From an uncultured Eubacteriales bacterium (lineage in GTDB: Bacteria > Bacillota > Clostridia > Christensenellales > CAG-138): a stretch of DNA of 38,989 nt. Below the pieces are notes generated by a model. That model was not told the DNA's origin. It searched no databases and saw nothing but the letters and a program-made list of their open reading frames with translations. Of the stretch, positions 26,437 through 37,570 are shown one piece after another. Where the stretch lies: contig CADAPG010000007.1 in NCBI GenBank assembly GCA_902789675.1, forward strand, positions 1 to 38,989, in the 5' to 3' direction. Made by a program: the position numbers and the translations under genes. Numbering within the stretch: the stretch's first letter is position 1; every line of letters begins with the position of its first letter.

Positions 26437-28119
26437 TCAGATCTCGTTGTTTGCGTCGCCCATGAGGTCGGCAAGCACCTTTTCGCGCACGACGCGCACG
26501 TCGGTCTCGCGCACCTTCTGACGGAGCGGAAGCACCGAGCGCGGCGAGACGGAAAGCTCGTCGATGCCGATCGAAAGGAACGTCTCGGTCAGCGCAAGAT
26601 CCGCGCCGAGCTCGCCGCAGATGCCGACCCAGATGCCGTTCCTGTGCGCATTGTCGCAGACCATCTTGAGGAGGCGCAGAACCGCGGGATGATGCGGGTT
26701 GAAGAAGCGCCCGAGGTCGTTGTTCTGGCGGTCGCACGCAAGCGTGTACTGCGTCAGGTCGTTCGTGCCGCAGGAGAAGAAGTCGACCTCCTTCGCAAGA
26801 CGGTCGGAGATGATCGCCGCCGCAGGCGTCTCGATCATGATGCCGACTTCGACGTCGTTGTCGAACGGAATGCCCTCCGCGGTGAGTTCCTTCTTGACGC
26901 GCTCGCACATCTTCTTTGCTTCGCGCACCTCCCAGACGGACGTGACCATCGGGAACATGATGGAAAGCTTTCCGAACGCAGAGGCGCGATAGAGCGCGCG
27001 GATCTGCGTATGGAAGATCTCGGGACGGTTCAGGCAGATACGCAGCGCGCGGTTGCCGAGCGCCGGGTTCTCCTCATTCGGGAGATTGAAGTAGCCGATC
27101 TGCTTGTCGGCGCCGATGTCGAGCGTGCGGATGACGACCTCTCTGCCCTCCATATCGGAAAGCGCCTTTTTGTATGCTTCGAACTGATACTCCTCATCGG
27201 GATAGTCGTCGCAGTTCAGATACAGGAATTCACTGCGGAACAGACCGACGCCGCCTGCGTCGTTCTTCAGGACCGCGGCAACGTCGTCCGGGCTGCCGAT
27301 GTTGCAGTAGATGCGCACGCTCTGTCCGTCCTTCGTCACGTTCGGCTTGCCCTTGAGCTCGTCCAGAAGCGCCTGCATCTTTTTCTGCTCCTCCATCTTT
27401 TTGAGCATCTTCGCGCGGGCAGCTTCGTCCGCGTCGACCAGAATGCTGCCGTTGGAGCCGTCGATGATGACCTCGTGACCTGCCATTTCCGGCTTCATGG
27501 CGTCGCCGACGCCGATGATTGCGGGGATGCCCATCGTGCGGGCGAGGATCGCCGTGTGGCTCGATCCGCTGCCGCCCTCGGTGATGAAGCCGAGGATCTT
27601 GCTCTTGTCAAGCTGAACGGTCTCGCTCGGCGCAAGATCGTCCGCCGCAAGGATGACCGGGACCGGCGAATCGACGCCGCCCGCGACCGCGCCGGTCAAG
27701 ATGCCGAGGATGCGGCCCGCAATGTCCTTGACGTCCGCGGCGCGCGCCTGGAAATACGCGTCGTCCATCGAGGCGAACATCTCCGCAAACTGCGCGGCGG
27801 TATCGGAAACCGCAGACTCCGCGTTCAGCTTCTCGTCGTTGATCATGTTCTGGATGCTCTCTTCGAATTCGAGATCCTCCGCCATCATCGCATGCGTTTC
27901 AAACAGCATCGCCGCTTCGTCGCCTGCCTCGGCTCTCGCCTTCTCCGCAAGCTCGCCCAACTGCTCGATCGCCTTCTCCTGCGCCGCCTTGAACCGCGCC
28001 CACTCCGCCTCGGTGTCCGCGACCTCGTACCGAGTGATCGTGCTCTTTGCGCGCTGATAGAAATACAGGGGACCGAGCGCAACGCCGGTGGATACGCCCT
28101 TACCTTGAATTGTGATCAT
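26437..28119 (-). CDS. ptsI: PTS enzyme I, phosphoenolpyruvate-protein phosphotransferase
   Basis: A 560-residue cytoplasmic enzyme that transfers phosphate from PEP to HPr. The N-terminal HPr-binding/phosphohistidine part carries the active His188 in GGSGSSHTAILAR. The PEP-binding barrel has FRSEFLYL, RTLDIGADK, NPALGNRALRICL, MFPMVTS, GIMIETPAAA, FSCGTNDLTQYTLACDRQN and the catalytic Cys in GICGELG. Length and order are standard. ATG 28119 follows GGAGGTATTTT. It is the last gene of an operon with the sucrose EII and HPr, separated from HPr by a strong hairpin. Confidence 0.97.
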   Translation of the reverse strand: MITIQGKGVSTGVALGPLYFYQRAKSTITRYEVADTEAEWARFKAAQEKAIEQLGELAEKARAEAGDEAAMLFETHAMMAEDLEFEESIQNMINDEKLNAESAVSDTAAQFAEMFASMDDAYFQARAADVKDIAGRILGILTGAVAGGVDSPVPVILAADDLAPSETVQLDKSKILGFITEGGSGSSHTAILARTMGIPAIIGVGDAMKPEMAGHEVIIDGSNGSILVDADEAARAKMLKKMEEQKKMQALLDELKGKPNVTKDGQSVRIYCNIGSPDDVAAVLKNDAGGVGLFRSEFLYLNCDDYPDEEYQFEAYKKALSDMEGREVVIRTLDIGADKQIGYFNLPNEENPALGNRALRICLNRPEIFHTQIRALYRASAFGKLSIMFPMVTSVWEVREAKKMCERVKKELTAEGIPFDNDVEVGIMIETPAAAIISDRLAKEVDFFSCGTNDLTQYTLACDRQNNDLGRFFNPHHPAVLRLLKMVCDNAHRNGIWVGICGELGADLALTETFLSIGIDELSVSPRSVLPLRQKVRETDVRVVREKVLADLMGDANNEI

Positions 28120-28185: not shown

Positions 28186-28443
28186 TTACAGGTTTGCTTT
28201 GAAGAACGCTTCGATCTCCGCCGCGGCGGTTTCTTCGTCTGCGCCTTCGATGTCCACACGGATCGTGTCGCCCTGCTTGATGCCCATGCCCATCAGCGCC
28301 ATCAGCTTGAGCGCGTTGACGGCTTTTTCGCCCTTTCTGACGGTGACGGTCGAGCCGTACTTTTTGATTTCCTTGACAAGGACGCCTGCGGGACGCGCAT
28401 GAATGCCGACCGGATCGGTGATGGTGTACTCAAACGATTTCAT
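28186..28443 (-). CDS. ptsH: HPr phosphocarrier protein without regulatory Ser46
   Basis: An 85-residue HPr of normal size. Active His15 lies in DPVGIHARPAG. The regulatory segment reads VNALKLMALMGMGI; aligned on VN and the second M-x-x-M, position 46 is Lys where Bacillus has Ser (VNLKSIMGVMSLGI). It can therefore pass phosphate to the EII but should not be a target of HPr kinase, and so would not act as a CcpA corepressor. Such HPr forms occur in some clostridia. ATG 28443 follows CAGGAGG, 30 bases after the EII stop. Confidence 0.95.
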   Translation of the reverse strand: MKSFEYTITDPVGIHARPAGVLVKEIKKYGSTVTVRKGEKAVNALKLMALMGMGIKQGDTIRVDIEGADEETAAAEIEAFFKANL

Positions 28444-28473: not shown

Positions 28474-30306
28474 TTATTCTGCACCGCACTCGACGCCTTC
28501 GAGGTCGTCGGAGTTGGTAAGAAGCACCGCAACGGTGTCGCTGTAACCCGCCGCCTTGATCTTTTCGCGGCTGAAGCGGATCAACGGCTGACCGAGCTTG
28601 ACTTCGTCTCCCTCTTTTACGAGGCACTCGAAGCCGTCGCCGTTCATATTGACGGTATCGACGCCGACATGGATCAGCATCTCCATGCCGTTCGACTCGA
28701 TGCCGATGGCGTGCTTGCTCTGCGCGACCGAGCTGATCGTGCCGTCAAACGGCGCAACGACAAGCTCTGCCGTGGGTTCTACGCCTACGCCGTCGCCGAG
28801 CACGCCGGACGCAAAGGTCTCATCCGGGATCGCTTCGCGCGCAATGACGTTGCCCGCGACCGGCTGCATGACCTTGCCAGCCGCGCAGCGGATGACGGAG
28901 ACCGTCGGAAGCTCCGGCGCCGCTTCGGGCTCTGCGGCTTTTTCTTCGGGCTTGTCTTCCTTCCAGATGAAGAGGGTCAGCGCGAACGCCACGCCTGCGG
29001 AGATCAGCAGCTCGACGAGGTACAGCGGGATGTTGTTGACCGCCGGGATCGCCGGGATGCCGGTGACGCCGTAAACCGGTGCGCCGAGCTTAAACAGCGC
29101 GCCGAACAGTGCGCCGACCGCGCCGCCCGCCATGCCGCAAAGGAACGGCTTCATGAAGCGGTAGTTGACACCGAAGATTGCAGGCTCCGTGATGCCCAGG
29201 GACGCGGAGAGCGAAGCGGGCAGCGCAACGGATCTGGTCTTGGCATTCTTGACCTTGACCGCGACCGCCAGGCACGCGCCGAACTGCGCAAAGTTCGCGG
29301 CGGATGCGATCGGCATCCAGGTATTGAGACCTGTCTGCGCGATCATGCCGGCCTCGATGACGTTGTACATATGGTGCAGGCCCAAGAAGACGGTCCACGG
29401 ATAGATCGCGCCCATGACGGCAGCGCCGACCGTGGTTCCCGCAAGCCATTTTGCGCCCATCAGGACGTAGTTTTCAAGAACGGAGAAGACCGGCCCAATG
29501 ATCGTGAACGTGGCGAATGCGGTGACCAGAACCGTGACGAGCGGCGTCACGAACAGGTCGATCATTTCCGGCACGATCTTGTGCAGCAGCTTCTCGAGCT
29601 TTGACATGAGTAAGACTGCCAATATGACGGGTATGACGTGTCCCTGATAGCCGACCTGTTGGATCGGATAGAAGAATATATGCCATTCCGGTATCGTTTC
29701 CGCGGTGCCGACCGTCCATGCGTTGATCAGCGCGGGATGGACCATCATCAGACCGATGACGGCGCCGAGGAAGATGTTGCCGCCGAAGACGCGCGCCGCG
29801 GAGATCGCGACCAGCACGGGCAGCAGCGCGAACGCGGTGTTCGCAACAAGGTCGAGGAAGGAATACCAGTCGGAATCGCCGAACGCCGGTGCAAACTTCG
29901 GGATCGCTTCAACGATACCCATCATCAGACCGGAAGCGACGATTGCGGGGAGGATCGGGACGAAGATGTCGCCCGGGGTCTTCAGAATCTTCTTCCACCA
30001 CGGCATCTTGGATGCCGCAGCCGCCTTGACGTCCGCCTTCGTTGCAGCGGACACGCCGGTGACGGCGAGGAACTCGTCGTACACCTTGTTGACCGTACCT
30101 GTTCCGATGATCAGCTGGAGCTGACCGTTCGACTCGAACATACCCTTGACGCCTTCGACGTCTTCGAGCGCTTTCTTGTCGAGCTTACTGTTGTCTGCGA
30201 TGACCAGACGAAGCCGGGTCGCGCAGTGTGCCGCGCTGATGACGTTCGAGCCGCCGCCAATGTATTTGGCGATCTCTTCAGCGCACTTGCGGTAATCCAG
30301 TGCCAT
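28474..30306 (-). CDS. scrA: Sucrose-specific PTS enzyme IIBCA
   Basis: A 610-residue fused permease that phosphorylates sucrose to sucrose 6-phosphate during uptake. The IIB domain comes first with Cys28 in AAHCATRLRL and the sucrose-type IIGTGTVNKVYDE. The IIC domain (about 105-450) has about ten hydrophobic segments with PILPAIVASGLMMG, GLHHMYNVIEAG and GITEPAIFGVN. A Pro/Ala/Glu linker (EEKAAEPEAAPE) leads to IIA, whose phosphorylated His546 lies in LIHVGVDTV. Because IIA is fused, no separate IIA is needed. ATG 30306 lies 13 bases after GGGGG, a rather long spacing. It heads an operon with ptsH and ptsI. Sucrose is favoured over trehalose by the GH32, fructokinase and amylosucrase genes nearby. 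Confidence 0.92.
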   Translation of the reverse strand: MALDYRKCAEEIAKYIGGGSNVISAAHCATRLRLVIADNSKLDKKALEDVEGVKGMFESNGQLQLIIGTGTVNKVYDEFLAVTGVSAATKADVKAAAASKMPWWKKILKTPGDIFVPILPAIVASGLMMGIVEAIPKFAPAFGDSDWYSFLDLVANTAFALLPVLVAISAARVFGGNIFLGAVIGLMMVHPALINAWTVGTAETIPEWHIFFYPIQQVGYQGHVIPVILAVLLMSKLEKLLHKIVPEMIDLFVTPLVTVLVTAFATFTIIGPVFSVLENYVLMGAKWLAGTTVGAAVMGAIYPWTVFLGLHHMYNVIEAGMIAQTGLNTWMPIASAANFAQFGACLAVAVKVKNAKTRSVALPASLSASLGITEPAIFGVNYRFMKPFLCGMAGGAVGALFGALFKLGAPVYGVTGIPAIPAVNNIPLYLVELLISAGVAFALTLFIWKEDKPEEKAAEPEAAPELPTVSVIRCAAGKVMQPVAGNVIAREAIPDETFASGVLGDGVGVEPTAELVVAPFDGTISSVAQSKHAIGIESNGMEMLIHVGVDTVNMNGDGFECLVKEGDEVKLGQPLIRFSREKIKAAGYSDTVAVLLTNSDDLEGVECGAE

Positions 30307-30330: not shown

Positions 30331-30360
30331 CAGGTTCCGGTCAAGTCTGAAAAGAACCTG
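30331..30360 (-). promoter_or_regulatory. Inverted repeat in scrA leader
   Basis: CAGGTTC (30331-30337) and GAACCTG (30354-30360) flank 16 bases, placing a 7-bp stem within the first 35 bases of the scrA message. It does not match a BglG-type antiterminator site and lacks a T run. It could be a DNA operator or a leader stem. Confidence 0.4.
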
Positions 30361-30497: not shown

Positions 30498-30797
30498 ATG
30501 GAAAACCGACCCGACAACTTCACACGATGGCATATCCTGTTCGAAGGCGAAGTACAGTTCGTCGGCTTCCGCTATACCGCGCGGCTTCTGGCAAAGAAGC
30601 TCAGCCTTACCGGCTGGGTCCGAAATCTTCCCGACGGACGCGTGGAAGCGGAGACGCAGGGACCTGTTTCGGACCTTCGCAGATTCGTTCTGCAGCTCAA
30701 AAGCCAGCCGCACATCCGGATCACGCACTGCGCGATCACGCCGATCGCGCCGGATCCCTCGGAACGGCGCTTCTCCGTTCGCGATACCGTGGAATAG
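30498..30797 (+). CDS. acyP: Acylphosphatase
   Basis: A 99-residue cytosolic enzyme that hydrolyses acyl phosphates such as acetyl phosphate and 1,3-bisphosphoglycerate. The signature EGEVQFVGFRYTARLLAKKLSLTGWVRNLPDGRVEAETQG shows both catalytic residues: Arg in GFR and Asn in VRNLPDG. VQFVGFR replaces the more common VQGVGFR, a mild change. ATG 30498 follows GAAAGGAG; a longer in-frame start is unsupported. A TATACT lies at 30472-30477 but a -35 is unclear. It stands alone between two leftward sucrose operons. Confidence 0.93.
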   Translation: MENRPDNFTRWHILFEGEVQFVGFRYTARLLAKKLSLTGWVRNLPDGRVEAETQGPVSDLRRFVLQLKSQPHIRITHCAITPIAPDPSERRFSVRDTVE

Positions 30798-30799
30798 CA

Positions 30800-30830
30800 A
30801 AAGGACTGCAAAACGCAGTCCTTTCGTTTT
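30800..30830. terminator. Bidirectional terminator between acyP and HAD gene
   Basis: AAAGGACTGC-AAAAC-GCAGTCCTTT is a perfect 10-bp stem, followed rightward by CGTTTTA and leftward by TGCTATT. It is stronger for the rightward gene. Confidence 0.8.
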
Positions 30831-31653
30831 ATATCAATCCCAGTTGTACAAACGCGATCGCAAGCCCGTCCTCGTCCACCGCGGGGCAGACGATATCGCT
30901 GATCTCCTTCAGCTTCGGGCTGCCGTTGTCCATGCACACGGAGGTCCCGACCGTCTCGATCATCTCGAGATCGTTCATGCTGTCGCCGAATCCGATCGTG
31001 TCCTCGATCGCGATCCCATACGCGTCCGCCACGATGCGCACGCCCCTGCCCTTGTCGAAGCTCCGGTTGATGAGTTCTCCGTTCAGGCAGTGATGCGCCG
31101 CGACATCCTGTACGACGAATTTGAAATCCTTTTCCAGCGCTTCCCTTGCGGGCACAAGCTGACTCGCCTCGGTGCACATAAACACGATCTTATAGACCGG
31201 TCTGCCGTCGTACGCGTGCATCGGCAGGATATTGAGCTCCTCCGCGAGCGCTTTGCGCCACCGCACGAGCTCGCTGTTGCCCTCGCCCGCGCTTGCCAGA
31301 AAATCGCCGAGGTCCTCGTCGCCCCAGGTCGCGTCCTTCGCCTCGATCGTGCGGAACACGCCGTTTTCCTTCAGAAGACGCATGCCGGTTTCCAGCTGTT
31401 CCTGCGTCATCGGACAGTCAAAGAGCACCTTGTCGCCCGCAAAGACGTAGCCGCCCGCCGCCGCGACGGCGCCCTCGAACCCGAGCGTAAGCACCGGGGC
31501 GAGCATGGCGGGATTGCGTCCCGTGCAGAGAAAGACCTTGTGTCCGTTCTTCTGCGCCTCCCTGATCGCCTGCATCGCGCTTTCGGGGGGCGTATTGCTG
31601 CCCGCAGGGGTCAGCGTGCCGTCGATGTCCAGAAAGATCAGTTTTGTGTTCAT
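30829..31653 (-). CDS. Cof-type HAD-IIB sugar phosphatase
   Basis: A 274-residue HAD hydrolase of class IIB. Motif I is FLDIDGTLT with nucleophile Asp9 and acid/base Asp11; motif II is CTGRNPA; the cap lies at about 85-190; Lys is in SFDKGRGV; motif IV is GFGDSMNDLEM. Such enzymes dephosphorylate sugar phosphates, and sucrose-6-phosphate phosphatase belongs to the same class. ATG 31653 follows GGAGGG, 14 bases after the amylosucrase-family gene, so it is third in the operon with scrK. A role on sucrose 6-phosphate is suggested by context only. Confidence 0.9.
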   Translation of the reverse strand: MNTKLIFLDIDGTLTPAGSNTPPESAMQAIREAQKNGHKVFLCTGRNPAMLAPVLTLGFEGAVAAAGGYVFAGDKVLFDCPMTQEQLETGMRLLKENGVFRTIEAKDATWGDEDLGDFLASAGEGNSELVRWRKALAEELNILPMHAYDGRPVYKIVFMCTEASQLVPAREALEKDFKFVVQDVAAHHCLNGELINRSFDKGRGVRIVADAYGIAIEDTIGFGDSMNDLEMIETVGTSVCMDNGSPKLKEISDIVCPAVDEDGLAIAFVQLGLI

Positions 31654-31667
31654 GCGTTTCCCTCCGT

Positions 31668-33518
31668 TCAAAATGTCTGATGCAGCCAGATCCAGCCGCC
31701 CGCGGGCAGTTCGACCGCGCCTGCGTCGCGCCGCTCGCCGGTGATCAGGTCGGTGAACAGGGAGAGGTCCTGCACCCACGCGACCTGCGGTTCATCGGAG
31801 AAATTGAACAGCGCGAGCAGCTTTTCCTTTTGATAATAGCGACCGATCCCGAGCACGTGATCGTTGTGCGTGTCGAGCGTCCACGTGTCCGCCTCATCGT
31901 CGAACACGCGATACTGCGCGCGAAGCTCCTCCTGCCGCTTGATCGCACGGAAAACCTTCCCCTCGGTCGACGTCTTCAGCTCTCTGCGCTTCGCCTTTGT
32001 CCAATCGAGATTGCCGCGGTGCAGATACCTGCTGTCCTCCGCCTTTAAGGGATCGTCGTGGTAGCCGTAATCGTTTTCCGCCGCGATCTCGTCGCCGCTG
32101 TACAGCACCGGCACGCCGCTCATCGTGAACATCAGCGCATGGAGCATGTTGTCCCTGCGGATCGCGTCGGAAAGCGCCGCCTTGTCGCCGCTCTGCTCCG
32201 CCGCTTCAATGCCGCACAGCGAAGCCGTCGTTCCGCACAGACGAGCGTCGCCGAGACGCGGATCGTCGTTATAGAGCTCGCCGCGCGCAAAGCTGCCCAT
32301 CCATTTGCCGGTCAGATAGTCGTTGAGATATTTCTTATGCGGGATCTCCTCCTGTCCGAACTTCCGGAGGAAGCCGTAATCCAGTCCCCAGCCGATGTCG
32401 TCGTGGCAGCGGAGATAGTTCAAAAACGTGTACTGCTTGGGAAGCGAGAACACCTGCTCCATCTGATGCCGGAGAAGCCGGACGTCCTTCGTGGCGACCG
32501 TGTGCCAGATCGACGCCATCGTCGTGACGTTGTAGAGCAGATGGCATTCGGGCTTTTCGACCGTGCCGAAATACGGAACGACCTTGGAGGGCTCCATCAC
32601 GACCTCGCCCAGAAGCAGCGTGCCCGGGCAGACGATCTCGCACACCATGCGCATGATGCGCACGAGCGTGTGGACCTCCTTGAGGTTGCGGCACTGCGTG
32701 CCGAGCGCTTTCCAGATATACGGGACCGCGTCGAGCCGGATGATGTCCACGCCGTGGTTGCACAGGTACAGCATGTTGTCCGTCATGTCGTTGAAGACGG
32801 TCGGGTTCGCATAGTTCAGGTCCCACTGATAGGGATAGAACGTCGTCATTACGACCTTTTTCGCTTCCTCGCACCAGGTGAAATTGCCCGGCGCGGTCGT
32901 CGGGAACACCTGCGGCACGGTCTGCTCGTACGCGTTCGGGATCTCCCAGCTGTCGTAGAAGAAATACCGGTCCTGATACTCCTTCTCGCCGGCGCGGGCG
33001 CGTTTCGCCCACGCGTGATCCTCGCTCGTATGGTTCATAACGAAGTCGAGACAGACGGCGATGCCGCGCTCATGGCACGCCTCCGACAGCGCAAACAGGT
33101 CGTCCATCGTGCCGAGCTCGGGCTGCACCCTGCGGAAGTCGCTGACCGCGTAGCCGCCGTCGCTTCTGCCCTTCGGGCTCTCGAGCAGCGGCATCAGATG
33201 CAGATAATTCACGCCGCAGTCGGTGATGTAGTCGATCTTCTTCTGCACGCCCTTCAGCGTTCCCGCAAACGCGTTGACATACATCAGCATGCCGACGAGA
33301 TCGTGTCCGCGGTACCAGTCCGGGTACACCTCCCGCGCGCGGTCCATATTTTTCAGGGATTCGGGACGCGCCTCATAGGCGCGGTACAGCATATCGACGA
33401 AGTGCCGGTATGCCTTCATGTCGTTGTGGTACAGTTCGCAGTAAAGCCACTTCATCTCGTCCTCATACCGGACGTAGCGCGCGATAAACTCCTGCGCCCA
33501 ATGCTCGCGTTCCATCAT
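31668..33518 (-). CDS. Amylosucrase-family GH13 enzyme (GH13_4)
   Basis: A 616-residue protein matching amylosucrase in length and order: a helical N-terminal part, then YVNAFAGTLKGV (80-91), YLHLMPLLESPKGRSDGGYAVSD (105-127), DFVMNHT (158-164), QWDLNYANP (231-239), GVDIIRLDAVPYIWK with nucleophile Asp263, LLLGE with acid/base Glu305, and CHDDIGW with Asp373. These are hallmarks of GH13 subfamily 4, which moves glucose from sucrose to alpha-1,4-glucan or to water, releasing fructose. Polymerase and hydrolase activity cannot be told apart. ATG 33518 follows GGAGG, which lies inside the end of scrK 4 bases upstream. There is no signal peptide, so it is intracellular. It needs free sucrose. Confidence 0.9.
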   Translation of the reverse strand: MMEREHWAQEFIARYVRYEDEMKWLYCELYHNDMKAYRHFVDMLYRAYEARPESLKNMDRAREVYPDWYRGHDLVGMLMYVNAFAGTLKGVQKKIDYITDCGVNYLHLMPLLESPKGRSDGGYAVSDFRRVQPELGTMDDLFALSEACHERGIAVCLDFVMNHTSEDHAWAKRARAGEKEYQDRYFFYDSWEIPNAYEQTVPQVFPTTAPGNFTWCEEAKKVVMTTFYPYQWDLNYANPTVFNDMTDNMLYLCNHGVDIIRLDAVPYIWKALGTQCRNLKEVHTLVRIMRMVCEIVCPGTLLLGEVVMEPSKVVPYFGTVEKPECHLLYNVTTMASIWHTVATKDVRLLRHQMEQVFSLPKQYTFLNYLRCHDDIGWGLDYGFLRKFGQEEIPHKKYLNDYLTGKWMGSFARGELYNDDPRLGDARLCGTTASLCGIEAAEQSGDKAALSDAIRRDNMLHALMFTMSGVPVLYSGDEIAAENDYGYHDDPLKAEDSRYLHRGNLDWTKAKRRELKTSTEGKVFRAIKRQEELRAQYRVFDDEADTWTLDTHNDHVLGIGRYYQKEKLLALFNFSDEPQVAWVQDLSLFTDLITGERRDAGAVELPAGGWIWLHQTF

Positions 33519-33522
33519 TTGC

Positions 33523-34458
33523 TTATTCCTCCGTAAGTTCGTCTTCGGTCGGCATGGCGGGGATCGCGCCGGGTCGGCTCGCGGTGATCGACGCCGCGCG
33601 GTTCGCGTAGCGCACATAGCATCCGATCCGTTCCGGCGTCAGGTCGTTGAGCCCGCCGTGTTTTGCAATGCGGCTTAAAAACGCGCCGAAGAACGTGTCG
33701 CCCGCGCCGTTCGTGTCCGCAACCTTTACCTTGAATCCCGGGACCGTGCCGGATTCCCTGCCGTATCTCCAGTAAGCGCCGTTTGCGCCGAGCGTCACGA
33801 CCGCAAGCTTCACACCGCGATCCATCAGCACTTCGGCGGCTTCCTTCGGCGCTTCGCGTCCCGTCAGCAGCAGGGTCTCCTCCTCGCTGATCTTCACGAT
33901 ATCGCAGAGCGGCAGAACCGACCGCATGATCCCGATCGCATCCCCTTCGCTGTTCCAAAGCGAAGCGCGGTAGTTCGGGTCGTACGTGATCAGCGCGCCG
34001 TCCGCCTTTGCCTGCTTCACCGCGGAGATGATCGTTTCACGGCAGGCGGTCGAAGCCAGCGAAACGCTGCCGAAATGCAGGATGTCCGTATGCCGGACCG
34101 CCGCAAGCGCTTTTCTGCGGCCGATCTGCGTGTCCGCGCCGGGTTTTCTGCAGAACGCAAAGCTGCGCTCGCCGTGCGGATCGACGGTCACGACGGCAAG
34201 CGTCGTGTCGGCATGGTCGGTGACCTGCAGCCCGCTCGTATCGACGTTGTACTGCAGCAGCGTCCGTTTCAGGATCTCGCCGAACGGATCGTTGCCGACG
34301 CATCCGACAAAGGCGGTCTCCACGCCGAGCTTGCGCGCGGCAACCGCAAGATTCGCCGGCGCGCCGCCCGGGATCGCGGCAAAAACCGCGTTTCCGTTCG
34401 CGTCCGTTCCCGTCTGCGTCATGTCGATCAAGATCTCACCGATGGTCGTGATTCTCAT
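33523..34458 (-). CDS. scrK: PfkB-family carbohydrate kinase, probable fructokinase
   Basis: A 311-residue sugar kinase. The N-terminal pattern GGAPANLAVAARKLG (31-45), DPNYR (160-164) and the PfkB signature DTNGAGDTFFGAF with catalytic Asp254 are clear. It would phosphorylate fructose released by GH32 or amylosucrase to fructose 6-phosphate. The start at ATG 34458 follows GGAGGGGAAAG; ATGs near 34518 lie in the promoter leader without a ribosome site. It is the first gene of an operon with the amylosucrase-family and HAD genes. 2-keto-3-deoxygluconate or ribose kinase would look similar; context favours fructose. Confidence 0.85.
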   Translation of the reverse strand: MRITTIGEILIDMTQTGTDANGNAVFAAIPGGAPANLAVAARKLGVETAFVGCVGNDPFGEILKRTLLQYNVDTSGLQVTDHADTTLAVVTVDPHGERSFAFCRKPGADTQIGRRKALAAVRHTDILHFGSVSLASTACRETIISAVKQAKADGALITYDPNYRASLWNSEGDAIGIMRSVLPLCDIVKISEEETLLLTGREAPKEAAEVLMDRGVKLAVVTLGANGAYWRYGRESGTVPGFKVKVADTNGAGDTFFGAFLSRIAKHGGLNDLTPERIGCYVRYANRAASITASRPGAIPAMPTEDELTEE

Positions 34459-34772: not shown

Positions 34773-36014
34773 TTGAATCAGTTATTACGTTCCCACGCAA
34801 ATCAGATCATAAGGGAAGCGATCGCCGCCGTACAGCCCGACGCCGCCGTGCAGCGCGCGCTGAAGCGGATGACGTTTTCGGGACGCGTTCTGCTCGTTTC
34901 CGCGGGCAAAGCGGCATGGCAGATGGCAAAGGCTGCGTCCGACGCGCTCGGTGACCGCATCGAAAAAGGCGTGGTCGTGACCAAGTATGAGCACGTCATG
35001 GGTCCGATCGCAAACTTCGACTGCTTTGAAGCCGGTCATCCCGTTCCCGACGAAAACTCGTTCAAGGGCACACAGGCGGCGCTGGATCTCGTCGCCGATC
35101 TCAAGGAGGAGGACACCGTTCTGTTCCTGCTTTCGGGCGGCGGCAGCGCGCTGTTTGAAAAGCCGCTCGTTCCTGCCGCGGAGCTGCAGGACATCACCGG
35201 TCAGCTTCTTGCCTGCGGCGCGGACATCACCGAGATCAACACGATCCGCAAACGTCTGTCCGCCGTCAAGGGCGGTCGCTTTGCGCAGTTTGTGTGGCCC
35301 GCGCGGGTCGAAGCCGTGATCCTTTCGGACATCCTCGGCGATCCGCTGGACATGATCGCGTCCGGACCCGCCTGCCCCGATTCCACCACGGCGGAGGACG
35401 CGCAGCGCATTGCAAAGAAATATGATCTCAGAATGAGCGACGCGGCACGCGCCCTGCTTGCGATCGAAACGCCGAAGGTGCTCAACAACGTCCGCTCGCA
35501 GATCAACGGCAGTGTGCGCGAGCTTTGCGCCGCAGCGGAAAAAACGTGCACGGCGCTTGGCTATACGCCGATCCTGCTGACCGATCAGCTGTGCTGCCAG
35601 GCAAAGGAAGCCGGCAGCTTCCTCGCCTCGATCCTGAAAACGCATGCTTCCGACAATCGCTCGCTCGCGTTCATCGCCGGCGGTGAAACCGTCGTGAAGC
35701 TCGTCGGAAAGGGACTCGGCGGACGCAACCAGGAGCTGGCGCTTGCCGCCGCCGCCGGCATTGCGAACATGCCGAACGCCGCCGTCTTCTCGGTCGGCAG
35801 CGACGGGACCGACGGACCGACCGACGCCGCGGGCGGTTATGCCGACGGCGATACCGTGCGGGAACTGAAGGCGCACGGGCTGACCGTCGACGCGGTCCTT
35901 TCAAACAACGACGCCTATCACGCGCTCGAAAAGACCGGCGGTCTCATCATGACCGGTCCCACGGGCACGAACGTCAACGACGTTGCGGTCGCGCTGCTGC
36001 GCAGTCAGCTCTGA
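34773..36014 (+). CDS. Glycerate 2-kinase, GckA/MOFRL family
   Basis: A 413-residue cytosolic kinase that makes phosphoglycerate from glycerate and ATP. Family phrases: VSAGKAAWQMAKAA, EAGHPVPDENS, LLSGGGSALFEKP, INTIRKRLSAVKGGR, LSDILGDPLDMIASGP, and the MOFRL part GLGGRNQELALA, SVGSDGTDGPTDAAGG and TGPTGTNVNDV. The start is probably TTG 34773, because GGGAGG ends 4 bases before it and homologues begin at this point (NQLLRSHANQIIREAI). An in-frame upstream stretch has no ribosome site and overlaps the promoter. It is transcribed alone. Confidence 0.9.
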   Translation: MNQLLRSHANQIIREAIAAVQPDAAVQRALKRMTFSGRVLLVSAGKAAWQMAKAASDALGDRIEKGVVVTKYEHVMGPIANFDCFEAGHPVPDENSFKGTQAALDLVADLKEEDTVLFLLSGGGSALFEKPLVPAAELQDITGQLLACGADITEINTIRKRLSAVKGGRFAQFVWPARVEAVILSDILGDPLDMIASGPACPDSTTAEDAQRIAKKYDLRMSDAARALLAIETPKVLNNVRSQINGSVRELCAAAEKTCTALGYTPILLTDQLCCQAKEAGSFLASILKTHASDNRSLAFIAGGETVVKLVGKGLGGRNQELALAAAAGIANMPNAAVFSVGSDGTDGPTDAAGGYADGDTVRELKAHGLTVDAVLSNNDAYHALEKTGGLIMTGPTGTNVNDVAVALLRSQL

Positions 36015-36071: not shown

Positions 36072-37538
36072 TCATTCGATCCTGAAATCGTCCGTGACCG
36101 CGCGCTCAAGCTCCCACAGATGGATCGAGGCGTCGCCGTGGGTGAACAGGCGTTTTTCGCCCGCCGTCGGGAAGATGCGCGACGAGAACACCGCGTCGCC
36201 GTCGTTGACAAAGATCTCGATCGAGCTGCGATCGATGAAGATCCGCAGATGGAATAGCCCCTTCGGCAGTGGACGGACGCGCGCCTCCCCCTGCTCCGTG
36301 TTGAAGCGCCGCGCCATTTCGGAACGGTCGACCGTAATCGTCTTTTCCGTGTCGTCGTAGTCGATGCGAAGCCCGCCCGTGCCGTCCGCTTTCGCAAAGA
36401 GCCTCAGGTTCAGGTCGCCGCCGCGGCTGATCAGCTCCAGTTCGCACACGCGCGGAAGGAGATCCGTGGCCTCGAGATCGATCTTTTTGCCGCGAAGCGC
36501 CCGAAGCACGTCAAGCGGCTGCTGAATCAAACGACGGTCCCGCACTCTGAGCTCGCGCGGCAGCGTCAGGCAGCCGGACCAGTCCTCCTCGTCGGTCGGA
36601 TAGGACGCGTCCGGCAGTCCCATCCACGCAACGAGCGTCGCCTTGTTCTTATCGTTCGGATTCGCGGCGCACTCCGCAGCATAGGAATCGAACCCGAAGT
36701 CGAGCACATGGAAGCGGGTATTGTCCGGGGTGAAGGTCAGCGTGTCCCAGTTCATGTGCCCCAGAAGGTACCCGTTGTGATGCACGCTGTCGCCCCTGCC
36801 GGGCAGCTTCAGGTGCTGCGGACAGAAGATCAGTACGTCGTACCCGCTGATCGTTTCGATCGACGGACATTCCCACATATCGCCGAAGTCCTCGAACCCC
36901 GGAACTTTGAGCTGTCCCGCAAACTGCCAGCCCTCCGTCGGATTGTCGGAGCTGTACACGATGACGCAGCCCTTCTTCTCCCTGGTCTGTGCGCCGATGA
37001 CGAGATAGTACCTGCCGTTCTGCTCGTTATGGATGATCTTCGGATCGCGCTGATGCTCGGTGTAATCCGGGTTCGGACCGAACAGCGGCGGCAGCTTTTC
37101 CGCCGTGCCGTCGTCCTTCAGCTTCACAAGGCAGGTATAGGGTCTGCGCGTCCAATCCTCATCCCGGTGATTGCCCGTATAATACAGCCATACGGAGTCC
37201 TCCGTGGGCAGCGCGGACCCGGAATACGCGCCCTTATTGTCGAATTCCGTGTCCGGACGGATGCAGACGCCCGCGTTTTTCCAGGTCACAAGATCCTTTG
37301 AAACGGTGTGGTACCAGTATTTCAGCCCGTGCATCGCGCCCCACGGACACCATTGATAAAACAGATGCCATACCCCGTCGTGGAAGACGAAGCCGTTCGG
37401 ATCGTTCAGAAGCCCGGTGACCGGCTGAATATGGTACTGCTGACGGTAATCCGACTGTGCGATCCGCTCATGGAGATCACGGACCTCCTCTGCGCTTTTC
37501 AGCACGCGATAACGTTCTTCCTTGGTCCACGTTTTCAT
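36072..37538 (-). CDS. scrB: GH32 sucrose-6-phosphate hydrolase (invertase)
   Basis: A 488-residue cytoplasmic enzyme that splits sucrose 6-phosphate (or sucrose) into glucose 6-phosphate and fructose. The five-blade propeller carries nucleophile Asp46 in GLLNDPNGF, QWCPWG, the transition-state Asp165 in QRDPK and acid/base Glu223 in DMWECPS. A C-terminal beta-sandwich follows from about 345 (LFHLRIFIDRSSIEIFVNDGDAVFSSR). The start ATG 37538 has AAAGG at good distance; ATG 37547 sits too close to it. It has its own promoter and lies apart from the EII operon, but completes the PTS sucrose route. Confidence 0.94.
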   Translation of the reverse strand: MKTWTKEERYRVLKSAEEVRDLHERIAQSDYRQQYHIQPVTGLLNDPNGFVFHDGVWHLFYQWCPWGAMHGLKYWYHTVSKDLVTWKNAGVCIRPDTEFDNKGAYSGSALPTEDSVWLYYTGNHRDEDWTRRPYTCLVKLKDDGTAEKLPPLFGPNPDYTEHQRDPKIIHNEQNGRYYLVIGAQTREKKGCVIVYSSDNPTEGWQFAGQLKVPGFEDFGDMWECPSIETISGYDVLIFCPQHLKLPGRGDSVHHNGYLLGHMNWDTLTFTPDNTRFHVLDFGFDSYAAECAANPNDKNKATLVAWMGLPDASYPTDEEDWSGCLTLPRELRVRDRRLIQQPLDVLRALRGKKIDLEATDLLPRVCELELISRGGDLNLRLFAKADGTGGLRIDYDDTEKTITVDRSEMARRFNTEQGEARVRPLPKGLFHLRIFIDRSSIEIFVNDGDAVFSSRIFPTAGEKRLFTHGDASIHLWELERAVTDDFRIE

Positions 37539-37570
37539 ATCCGTCATCCTTTCGCGTTTGTTTGTATATT

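Follow-up and report, generated by a model that had tools for sequence, protein, structure and literature searches.

In the classical scr pathway (ScrA, ScrB, and ScrK; PMC11251922), sucrose is imported by a phosphotransferase system (PTS), and ScrB cleaves the PTS product to glucose 6-phosphate and fructose; the phosphate of that product is therefore carried on glucose. In Enterococcus faecalis, MapP is a maltose 6'-phosphate phosphatase that joins the maltose PTS to the route for free maltose (Mokhtari 2013, as described in PMC3737437). The fructan locus of Faecalibacterium prausnitzii combines a beta-fructosidase, an ATP-binding cassette (ABC) transporter, a LacI regulator, a fructokinase, and an amylosucrase that degraded sucrose in Escherichia coli (PMC8894670), and Synechococcus PCC 7002 has an spsA-sppA-frkA-amsA operon (PMC11046441; PMC6949346). 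Here, we describe a candidate sucrose locus on contig CADAPG010000007.1 of an uncultured Eubacteriales bacterium, whose closest named relatives are rumen Clostridia. This single contig of 38,989 bases (the window) belongs to a 2.35-Mb metagenome-assembled genome (MAG) that is 89.5% complete. It carries an operon for a fructokinase, an amylosucrase-family enzyme (GH13_4), and a HAD-IIB phosphatase (HAD), near genes for a ScrA-like PTS enzyme II (EII), HPr, and PtsI. We propose, with a probability of roughly 0.55, that these genes form a sucrose module coupled to the PTS by a phosphatase bridge.

The locus is similar to the MapP system in that a phosphatase gene lies by a PTS EII gene; in the MapP case, the phosphatase frees a disaccharide for an enzyme of the unphosphorylated sugar (PMC3737437). 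The HAD gene, like those of MapP-type phosphatases, is linked to a disaccharide PTS EII, namely, the predicted sucrose EII ScrA. However, MapP-type enzymes have an endonuclease/exonuclease/phosphatase fold and their sugar is maltose, whereas the window enzyme has a HAD fold. By analogy, a pathway of this kind (i.e., PTS import, a phosphatase bridge, and an enzyme of the free disaccharide) would already be known, and its sucrose version would be new. The locus shares with F. prausnitzii, another gut member of the Clostridia, the adjacency of fructokinase and amylosucrase genes; in that species, however, free fructans enter via the ABC transporter, and the reported cluster names neither a phosphatase nor a sucrose PTS. 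The Synechococcus operon likewise unites a phosphatase, a fructokinase, and an amylosucrase, but there a synthase makes the sucrose phosphate and a true sucrose-phosphate phosphatase (SPP) dephosphorylates it, whereas the window locus presumably receives it from the PTS and has a HAD of the Cof type. Compared with the classical scr pathway, the window contains all three components (a sucrose PTS, a ScrB-like GH32, and a fructokinase) and adds GH13_4 and HAD, and nine ScrA-bearing relatives have no GH32. In open-licence papers, to which the literature searches were limited, no PTS-tied sucrose-6-phosphate phosphatase was found. The original prediction, made from the window sequence, knew of no described pathway of this kind.

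The open reading frames (ORFs) of fructokinase, GH13_4, and HAD all lie on the minus strand in one tight operon, and family profiles confirmed the gene assignments of the original prediction. The fructokinase stop and the GH13_4 start are separated by 4 bases, and the 14-base gap between GH13_4 and HAD contains a GGAGG-like site. Across 84,980 species genomes, 80 GH13_4 loci were found. GH13_4, HAD, and ScrA occurred together in 27 of these, mostly in the order [fructokinase]-GH13_4-HAD-ScrA-HPr-PtsI, a cassette found in other Clostridia and in MAGs of Spirochaetes (GH13_4 identity, 71 to 76%). In the distant relatives, HAD and ScrA were on one strand, mostly about 100 to 165 bases apart. Conservation of the gene order thus extends to organisms well outside the genus, which speaks against a chance arrangement. 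HAD was present without ScrA at seven loci, six of which had a contig end at most about 1.5 kb from GH13_4, while the seventh (L051) held a pseudogene. The remaining loci had only the EIIA domain of ScrA (two loci), ScrA without HAD (one locus), or neither gene nearby (43 loci). Genes in the relatives were called by codon scoring and tblastn, the DNA being G+C-rich with antisense ORFs.

Co-occurrence was scored in 51 GH13_4 genomes from the locus set, each searched whole, with absence calls resting on profile and protein searches. Both HAD and ScrA were found in 26 genomes, HAD alone in 1, ScrA alone in 7, and neither in 17 (Fisher P = 5e-7). The contig of one genome (G197) stops inside ScrA, and this genome was therefore not scored as having HAD without ScrA. 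Six to seven of nine phylogenetically independent contrasts on the GH13_4 tree agreed with the HAD-ScrA link, and almost none opposed it. Among 151 relatives, all 14 HAD genomes had both ScrA and GH13_4. HAD occurred in 6 of 396 genomes of the order; GH13_4 accompanied it in all six and ScrA in five. In nine genomes with HAD, ScrA, and GH13_4, GH32 was entirely absent, and the matched ScrA and HAD frames of these nine contained no stop codons. Conversely, all seven ScrA genomes without HAD carried GH32, and no ScrA genome lacked both HAD and GH32.

Loss of the two genes also appeared to be coupled. Three loci (L058, L071, and L159) kept GH13_4, HPr, PtsI, and an EIIA remnant, and the HAD of this clade was absent from them. 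Two others (L051 and L148) contained HAD pseudogene remnants, with ScrA gone or not nearby. GH13_4 was intact in all of these genomes. Because HAD loss usually follows ScrA loss while GH13_4 persists, it seems that HAD acts on the PTS product, whereas GH13_4 uses free sucrose. The co-occurrence with scrA, the conserved cassette, this decay, and the nine GH32-free genomes thus support the link between PTS sucrose import, HAD, and GH13_4 that the original prediction had drawn from the window.

The assignment of HAD to the Cof-type HAD-IIB family was clear (TIGR00099, 147.5 bits; cutoff, 137). Its four motifs are conserved across 28 family members (D9, D11, T/S44, K201, D224, and D228), and its AlphaFold2 (AF2) model (predicted local distance difference test [pLDDT] score, 90) had Cof-type sugar phosphatases as its top structural matches (template modeling [TM] score, about 0.8). 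The original prediction had argued from the kinship of HAD-IIB proteins to true sucrose-6-phosphate phosphatases, an argument that found no support in the form given. The plant and cyanobacterial SPP substrate is sucrose-6F-phosphate, with the phosphate on fructose (Pfam name of PF05116). HAD scored 166 bits with Pfam Hydrolase_3 versus 34 bits (a partial match) with S6PP and 64 bits with the SPP-subfamily profile (cutoff, 107), and the Synechocystis SPP structure 1s2o ranked only 40th among the matches of the model (TM score, 0.49). Profile, fold, and phosphate position rule out a true SPP. The SPP analogy therefore supports a HAD disaccharide-phosphate phosphatase in general, but not sucrose phosphorylated at glucose C6 as the substrate. 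We nevertheless infer from the genomic context that HAD is probably the phosphatase of PTS-delivered sucrose 6-phosphate.

The 18 best solved relatives of GH13_4, matched along its full length, were all amylosucrases or sucrose hydrolases (E values, 1e-125 to 1e-146). We aligned the window enzyme and 80 relatives with Neisseria polysaccharea amylosucrase (NpAS; reference identical to PDB 1g5a). The catalytic residues D286, E328, and D393 and the -1 pocket residues D144, H187, R284, and H392 (NpAS numbering) are shared with NpAS in 81 of 81 sequences, and R509 in 80 of 81. The roles of amylosucrase residues are known and include an Asp144-Arg509 salt bridge that closes the -1 pocket (PMC6949346). 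This closed glucose pocket, as read from the alignment, argues against direct cleavage of sucrose 6-phosphate. Since a 6-phosphate on the glucose unit would be hard to fit into the pocket, a phosphatase would be needed if GH13_4 uses PTS sucrose. GH13_4 is also retained in genomes without the PTS or HAD, and free sucrose should therefore be its substrate. In the +1 subsite, D394 and R446 are conserved, whereas Q437N, N439D, and I330V are changed; the family differs from NpAS in having LGEVVME at the acid/base and YNDDP in place of FQYNP in the +1 region. Its sequence features are mixed between amylosucrase (EC 2.4.1.4) and sucrose hydrolase, and the AF2 model (pLDDT, 66) was too poor for use. 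Profiles of glgA and glgP matched all 51 GH13_4 genomes; glycogen can therefore act as the acceptor and be reused. Replacement of a missing glycogen synthase by GH13_4 was ruled out by the same result.

In the proposed pathway, ScrA would import sucrose as sucrose 6-phosphate (with the phosphate at glucose C6), which HAD would dephosphorylate intracellularly. GH13_4 would then cleave the free sucrose, with the fructose going to fructokinase and the glucosyl residue being transferred to an alpha-glucan (e.g., glycogen) or, with lower likelihood, to water. Where GH32 is present, as in this genus, sucrose 6-phosphate could also take the classical branch in parallel; relatives lacking GH32 would depend on the HAD/GH13_4 branch alone. 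We put the full route from PTS sucrose to glucan forward only tentatively. A similarly cautious suggestion is that gut Clostridia and Spirochaetes have a complete GH32-free sucrose pathway, consisting of PTS import, a dedicated Cof-type HAD, amylosucrase-driven glucan storage, and delivery of fructose to glycolysis. Such a pathway would do for sucrose what MapP does for maltose, but with another phosphatase family, and its input to glycogen would bypass ADP-glucose. Dephosphorylation wastes one phosphoryl group, versus two for glycogen synthesis via ADP-glucose. If the proposal is true, PTS-imported sucrose can avoid ScrB, and a small phosphatase joins two routes thought to be incompatible, with glucose stored as alpha-glucan. 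One clade of the Cof-type HAD family, which is very large and for the most part lacks assigned functions, would then gain a specific role, and sucrose use would be predicted differently for genomes without GH32.

Several observations weigh against the phosphatase bridge. The sign test on the HAD-ScrA contrasts gave a P value of only about 0.03, and the complementarity of GH32 and HAD, taken alone, one of about 0.08. Most of the compared genomes are MAGs, in which single absences are weak. In one two-contig genome (G309), an intact HAD directly follows GH13_4 although ScrA of this clade is missing, and another (G188) retains a lone HAD without ScrA; these exceptions could be explained by a sub-threshold EII, recent loss, or a second substrate. 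The Cof type is a generic class with broad substrates, and the functions of HAD, ScrA, and GH13_4 here are predicted ones. The acid/base neighborhood (K326L and S327G) and +1 region (Q437N and N439D) of GH13_4 are unlike those of known amylosucrases. The window ScrA scores (Table 1) are under the cutoffs of the sucrose PTS families (559.3 for TIGR01996 and 614.7 for TIGR01995). Two ordinary ScrAs of the order that adjoin GH32 are also under the TIGR01996 cutoff (536 and 529 bits), and in three other genomes, members of the window ScrA clade stand divergent to a neighboring ScrB-like GH32. Sucrose is the predicted cargo of the window ScrA.

Free sucrose could also be supplied by a second locus of the same genome, on contig C11 (G000:C11:1-32286; L156 and L157), with four GH32 matches, an ABC permease pair, a LacI regulator, and two fructokinases. 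Judged by its genes, it is likely a fructo-oligosaccharide utilization locus and, by analogy with the fructokinase-amylosucrase locus of F. prausnitzii, might provide free sucrose by a second route. One of its GH32 matches, at the contig end, contains an in-frame TGA. The original prediction held that a separate non-PTS sucrose importer would refute its proposal. Contig C11 provides one at least in part, but it leaves the HAD-ScrA linkage unexplained.

This locus lends itself to an explanation in which the classical ScrA-GH32-fructokinase set handles sucrose 6-phosphate, GH13_4 acts on free sucrose from ABC-imported fructo-oligosaccharides, as in Faecalibacterium, and HAD acts in housekeeping or in the response to sugar-phosphate stress. 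The ABC permease pair, GH32s, and fructokinases of C11, the placement of the F. prausnitzii fructokinase and sucrose-degrading amylosucrase in a fructan ABC locus (PMC8894670), and the many GH13_4 genomes without ScrA and HAD are all consistent with it. We consider it unlikely, because it accounts neither for the joint occurrence and decay of HAD and ScrA nor for the nine GH32-free genomes that keep ScrA, HAD, and GH13_4. For GH32-free genomes, one could suppose that GH13_4 splits sucrose 6-phosphate directly and that HAD acts on a product (e.g., glucose 6-phosphate) or another metabolite, a reading compatible with the proximity of GH13_4 to ScrA and with +1 and acid/base surroundings unlike those of amylosucrases. 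However, the D144/R509 salt bridge and H187, which close on unphosphorylated glucose, are invariant, and the same GH13_4 is retained where there is no sucrose PTS. To our knowledge, no GH13 enzyme accepts a 6-phosphate in subsite -1, which also counts against direct cleavage, and we rate it as very improbable.

The remaining alternatives keep HAD as a sucrose-6-phosphate phosphatase and concern what follows. The bridge may operate as proposed with GH13_4 as a sucrose hydrolase that yields glucose and fructose for glycolysis, which overlaps our proposal and differs in the last step. The TTFYPYQWDLN and ECHL..Y regions are common to GH13_4 and the Xanthomonas sucrose hydrolase, and a proline at the R226 position is like that of the Deinococcus enzyme, whereas R446, a lysine at the R415 position, and the GDxRxxG segment match amylosucrases and not the hydrolase. 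With glgA and glgP, and hence glycogen as a likely acceptor, in every genome, hydrolysis as the final step is possible but doubtful. HAD might instead be a safety valve that keeps sucrose 6-phosphate from reaching toxic levels, without feeding GH13_4 at all. Its presence tracks ScrA and not the position of GH13_4, and at one locus (L052) HAD sits with GH32, fructokinase, and ScrA while GH13_4 is divergent. Yet HAD usually begins a few bases downstream of GH13_4, and no such HAD occurs at L160 and L161, two ordinary scrA-scrB loci of the order, so that we judge a pure safety valve to be quite improbable.

The coordinates of the window features are given in Table 1. GH32 flanks the operon on the side opposite to ScrA-HPr-PtsI.

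Table 1. Genes and sequence elements of the locus, in window positions.
Feature	Position	Strand	Remarks
PTS enzyme I (PtsI)	26437-28119	-	TIGR01417, 603.7 bits (cutoff, 341.7)
HPr	28186-28443	-	85-aa ORF kept between ScrA and PtsI; HPr-typical GIHARPAG
ScrA-like PTS EIIBCA	28474-30306	-	TIGR01996 (sucrose EIIBC), 514 bits; TIGR01995, 519 bits
Acylphosphatase gene between HAD and ScrA	30498-30797	+	
Intrinsic-terminator-like hairpin and T-run directly 3' of HAD	30798-30828	-	AAAGGACTGCGTTTTGCAGTCCTTTT, read in sequence
HAD-IIB Cof-type phosphatase, proposed sucrose-6-phosphate phosphatase	30829-31653	-	TIGR00099 above cutoff
GH13_4 (amylosucrase/sucrose hydrolase subfamily), 616 aa	31668-33518	-	No apparent signal peptide
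Fructokinase (PfkB family), first gene of the operon	33523-34458	-	Pfam PfkB, 201.9 bits
Glycerate 2-kinase (DUF4147/MOFRL)	34869-36014	+	
GH32, ScrB-family sucrose-6-phosphate hydrolase	36072-37547	-	TIGR01322, 440 bits (cutoff, 356.4)

The top NCBIfam match of the window fructokinase was the PRK09434 fructokinase (217 bits; cutoff, 450), and a promoter-like TTGCAT/TATACT pair upstream of the gene is conserved within the genus. Because the plus-strand acylphosphatase gene and the terminator-like hairpin intervene, ScrA and HAD are predicted not to be cotranscribed in this genus, with ScrA on a separate transcript. A palindrome (CAGGTTC-N16-GAACCTG, ~30331-30360, minus strand) lies between the ScrA promoter and start codon; it is weakly kept in relatives and is possibly an operator or a leader hairpin. 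A comparison of the fructokinase, ScrA, and GH32 promoters for a shared operator turned up nothing beyond promoter-like pairs and short matches attributable to chance.

The ScrA gene varies among the relatives. Many of their ScrAs have an in-frame hydrophilic insertion of ~85 to 120 residues in EIIC near residues 205 to 218 (e.g., L039:15677-17908, L040:7054-9273, and L146:6212-8398), which the window ScrA does not have. Insertion-bearing frames of 693 to 766 aa occur in G151-G153, G156-G158, and G178. The EIIA remnants at the three loci without HAD are stand-alone genes beside HPr and PtsI (L058:9208-9627, L071:10662-11105, and L159:5713-6213), perhaps kept as regulatory (Crr-like) proteins. 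The acylphosphatase gene remains near the cassette in many relatives, often after PtsI, and the glycerate 2-kinase gene and an adjoining permease-like gene recur near it in several.

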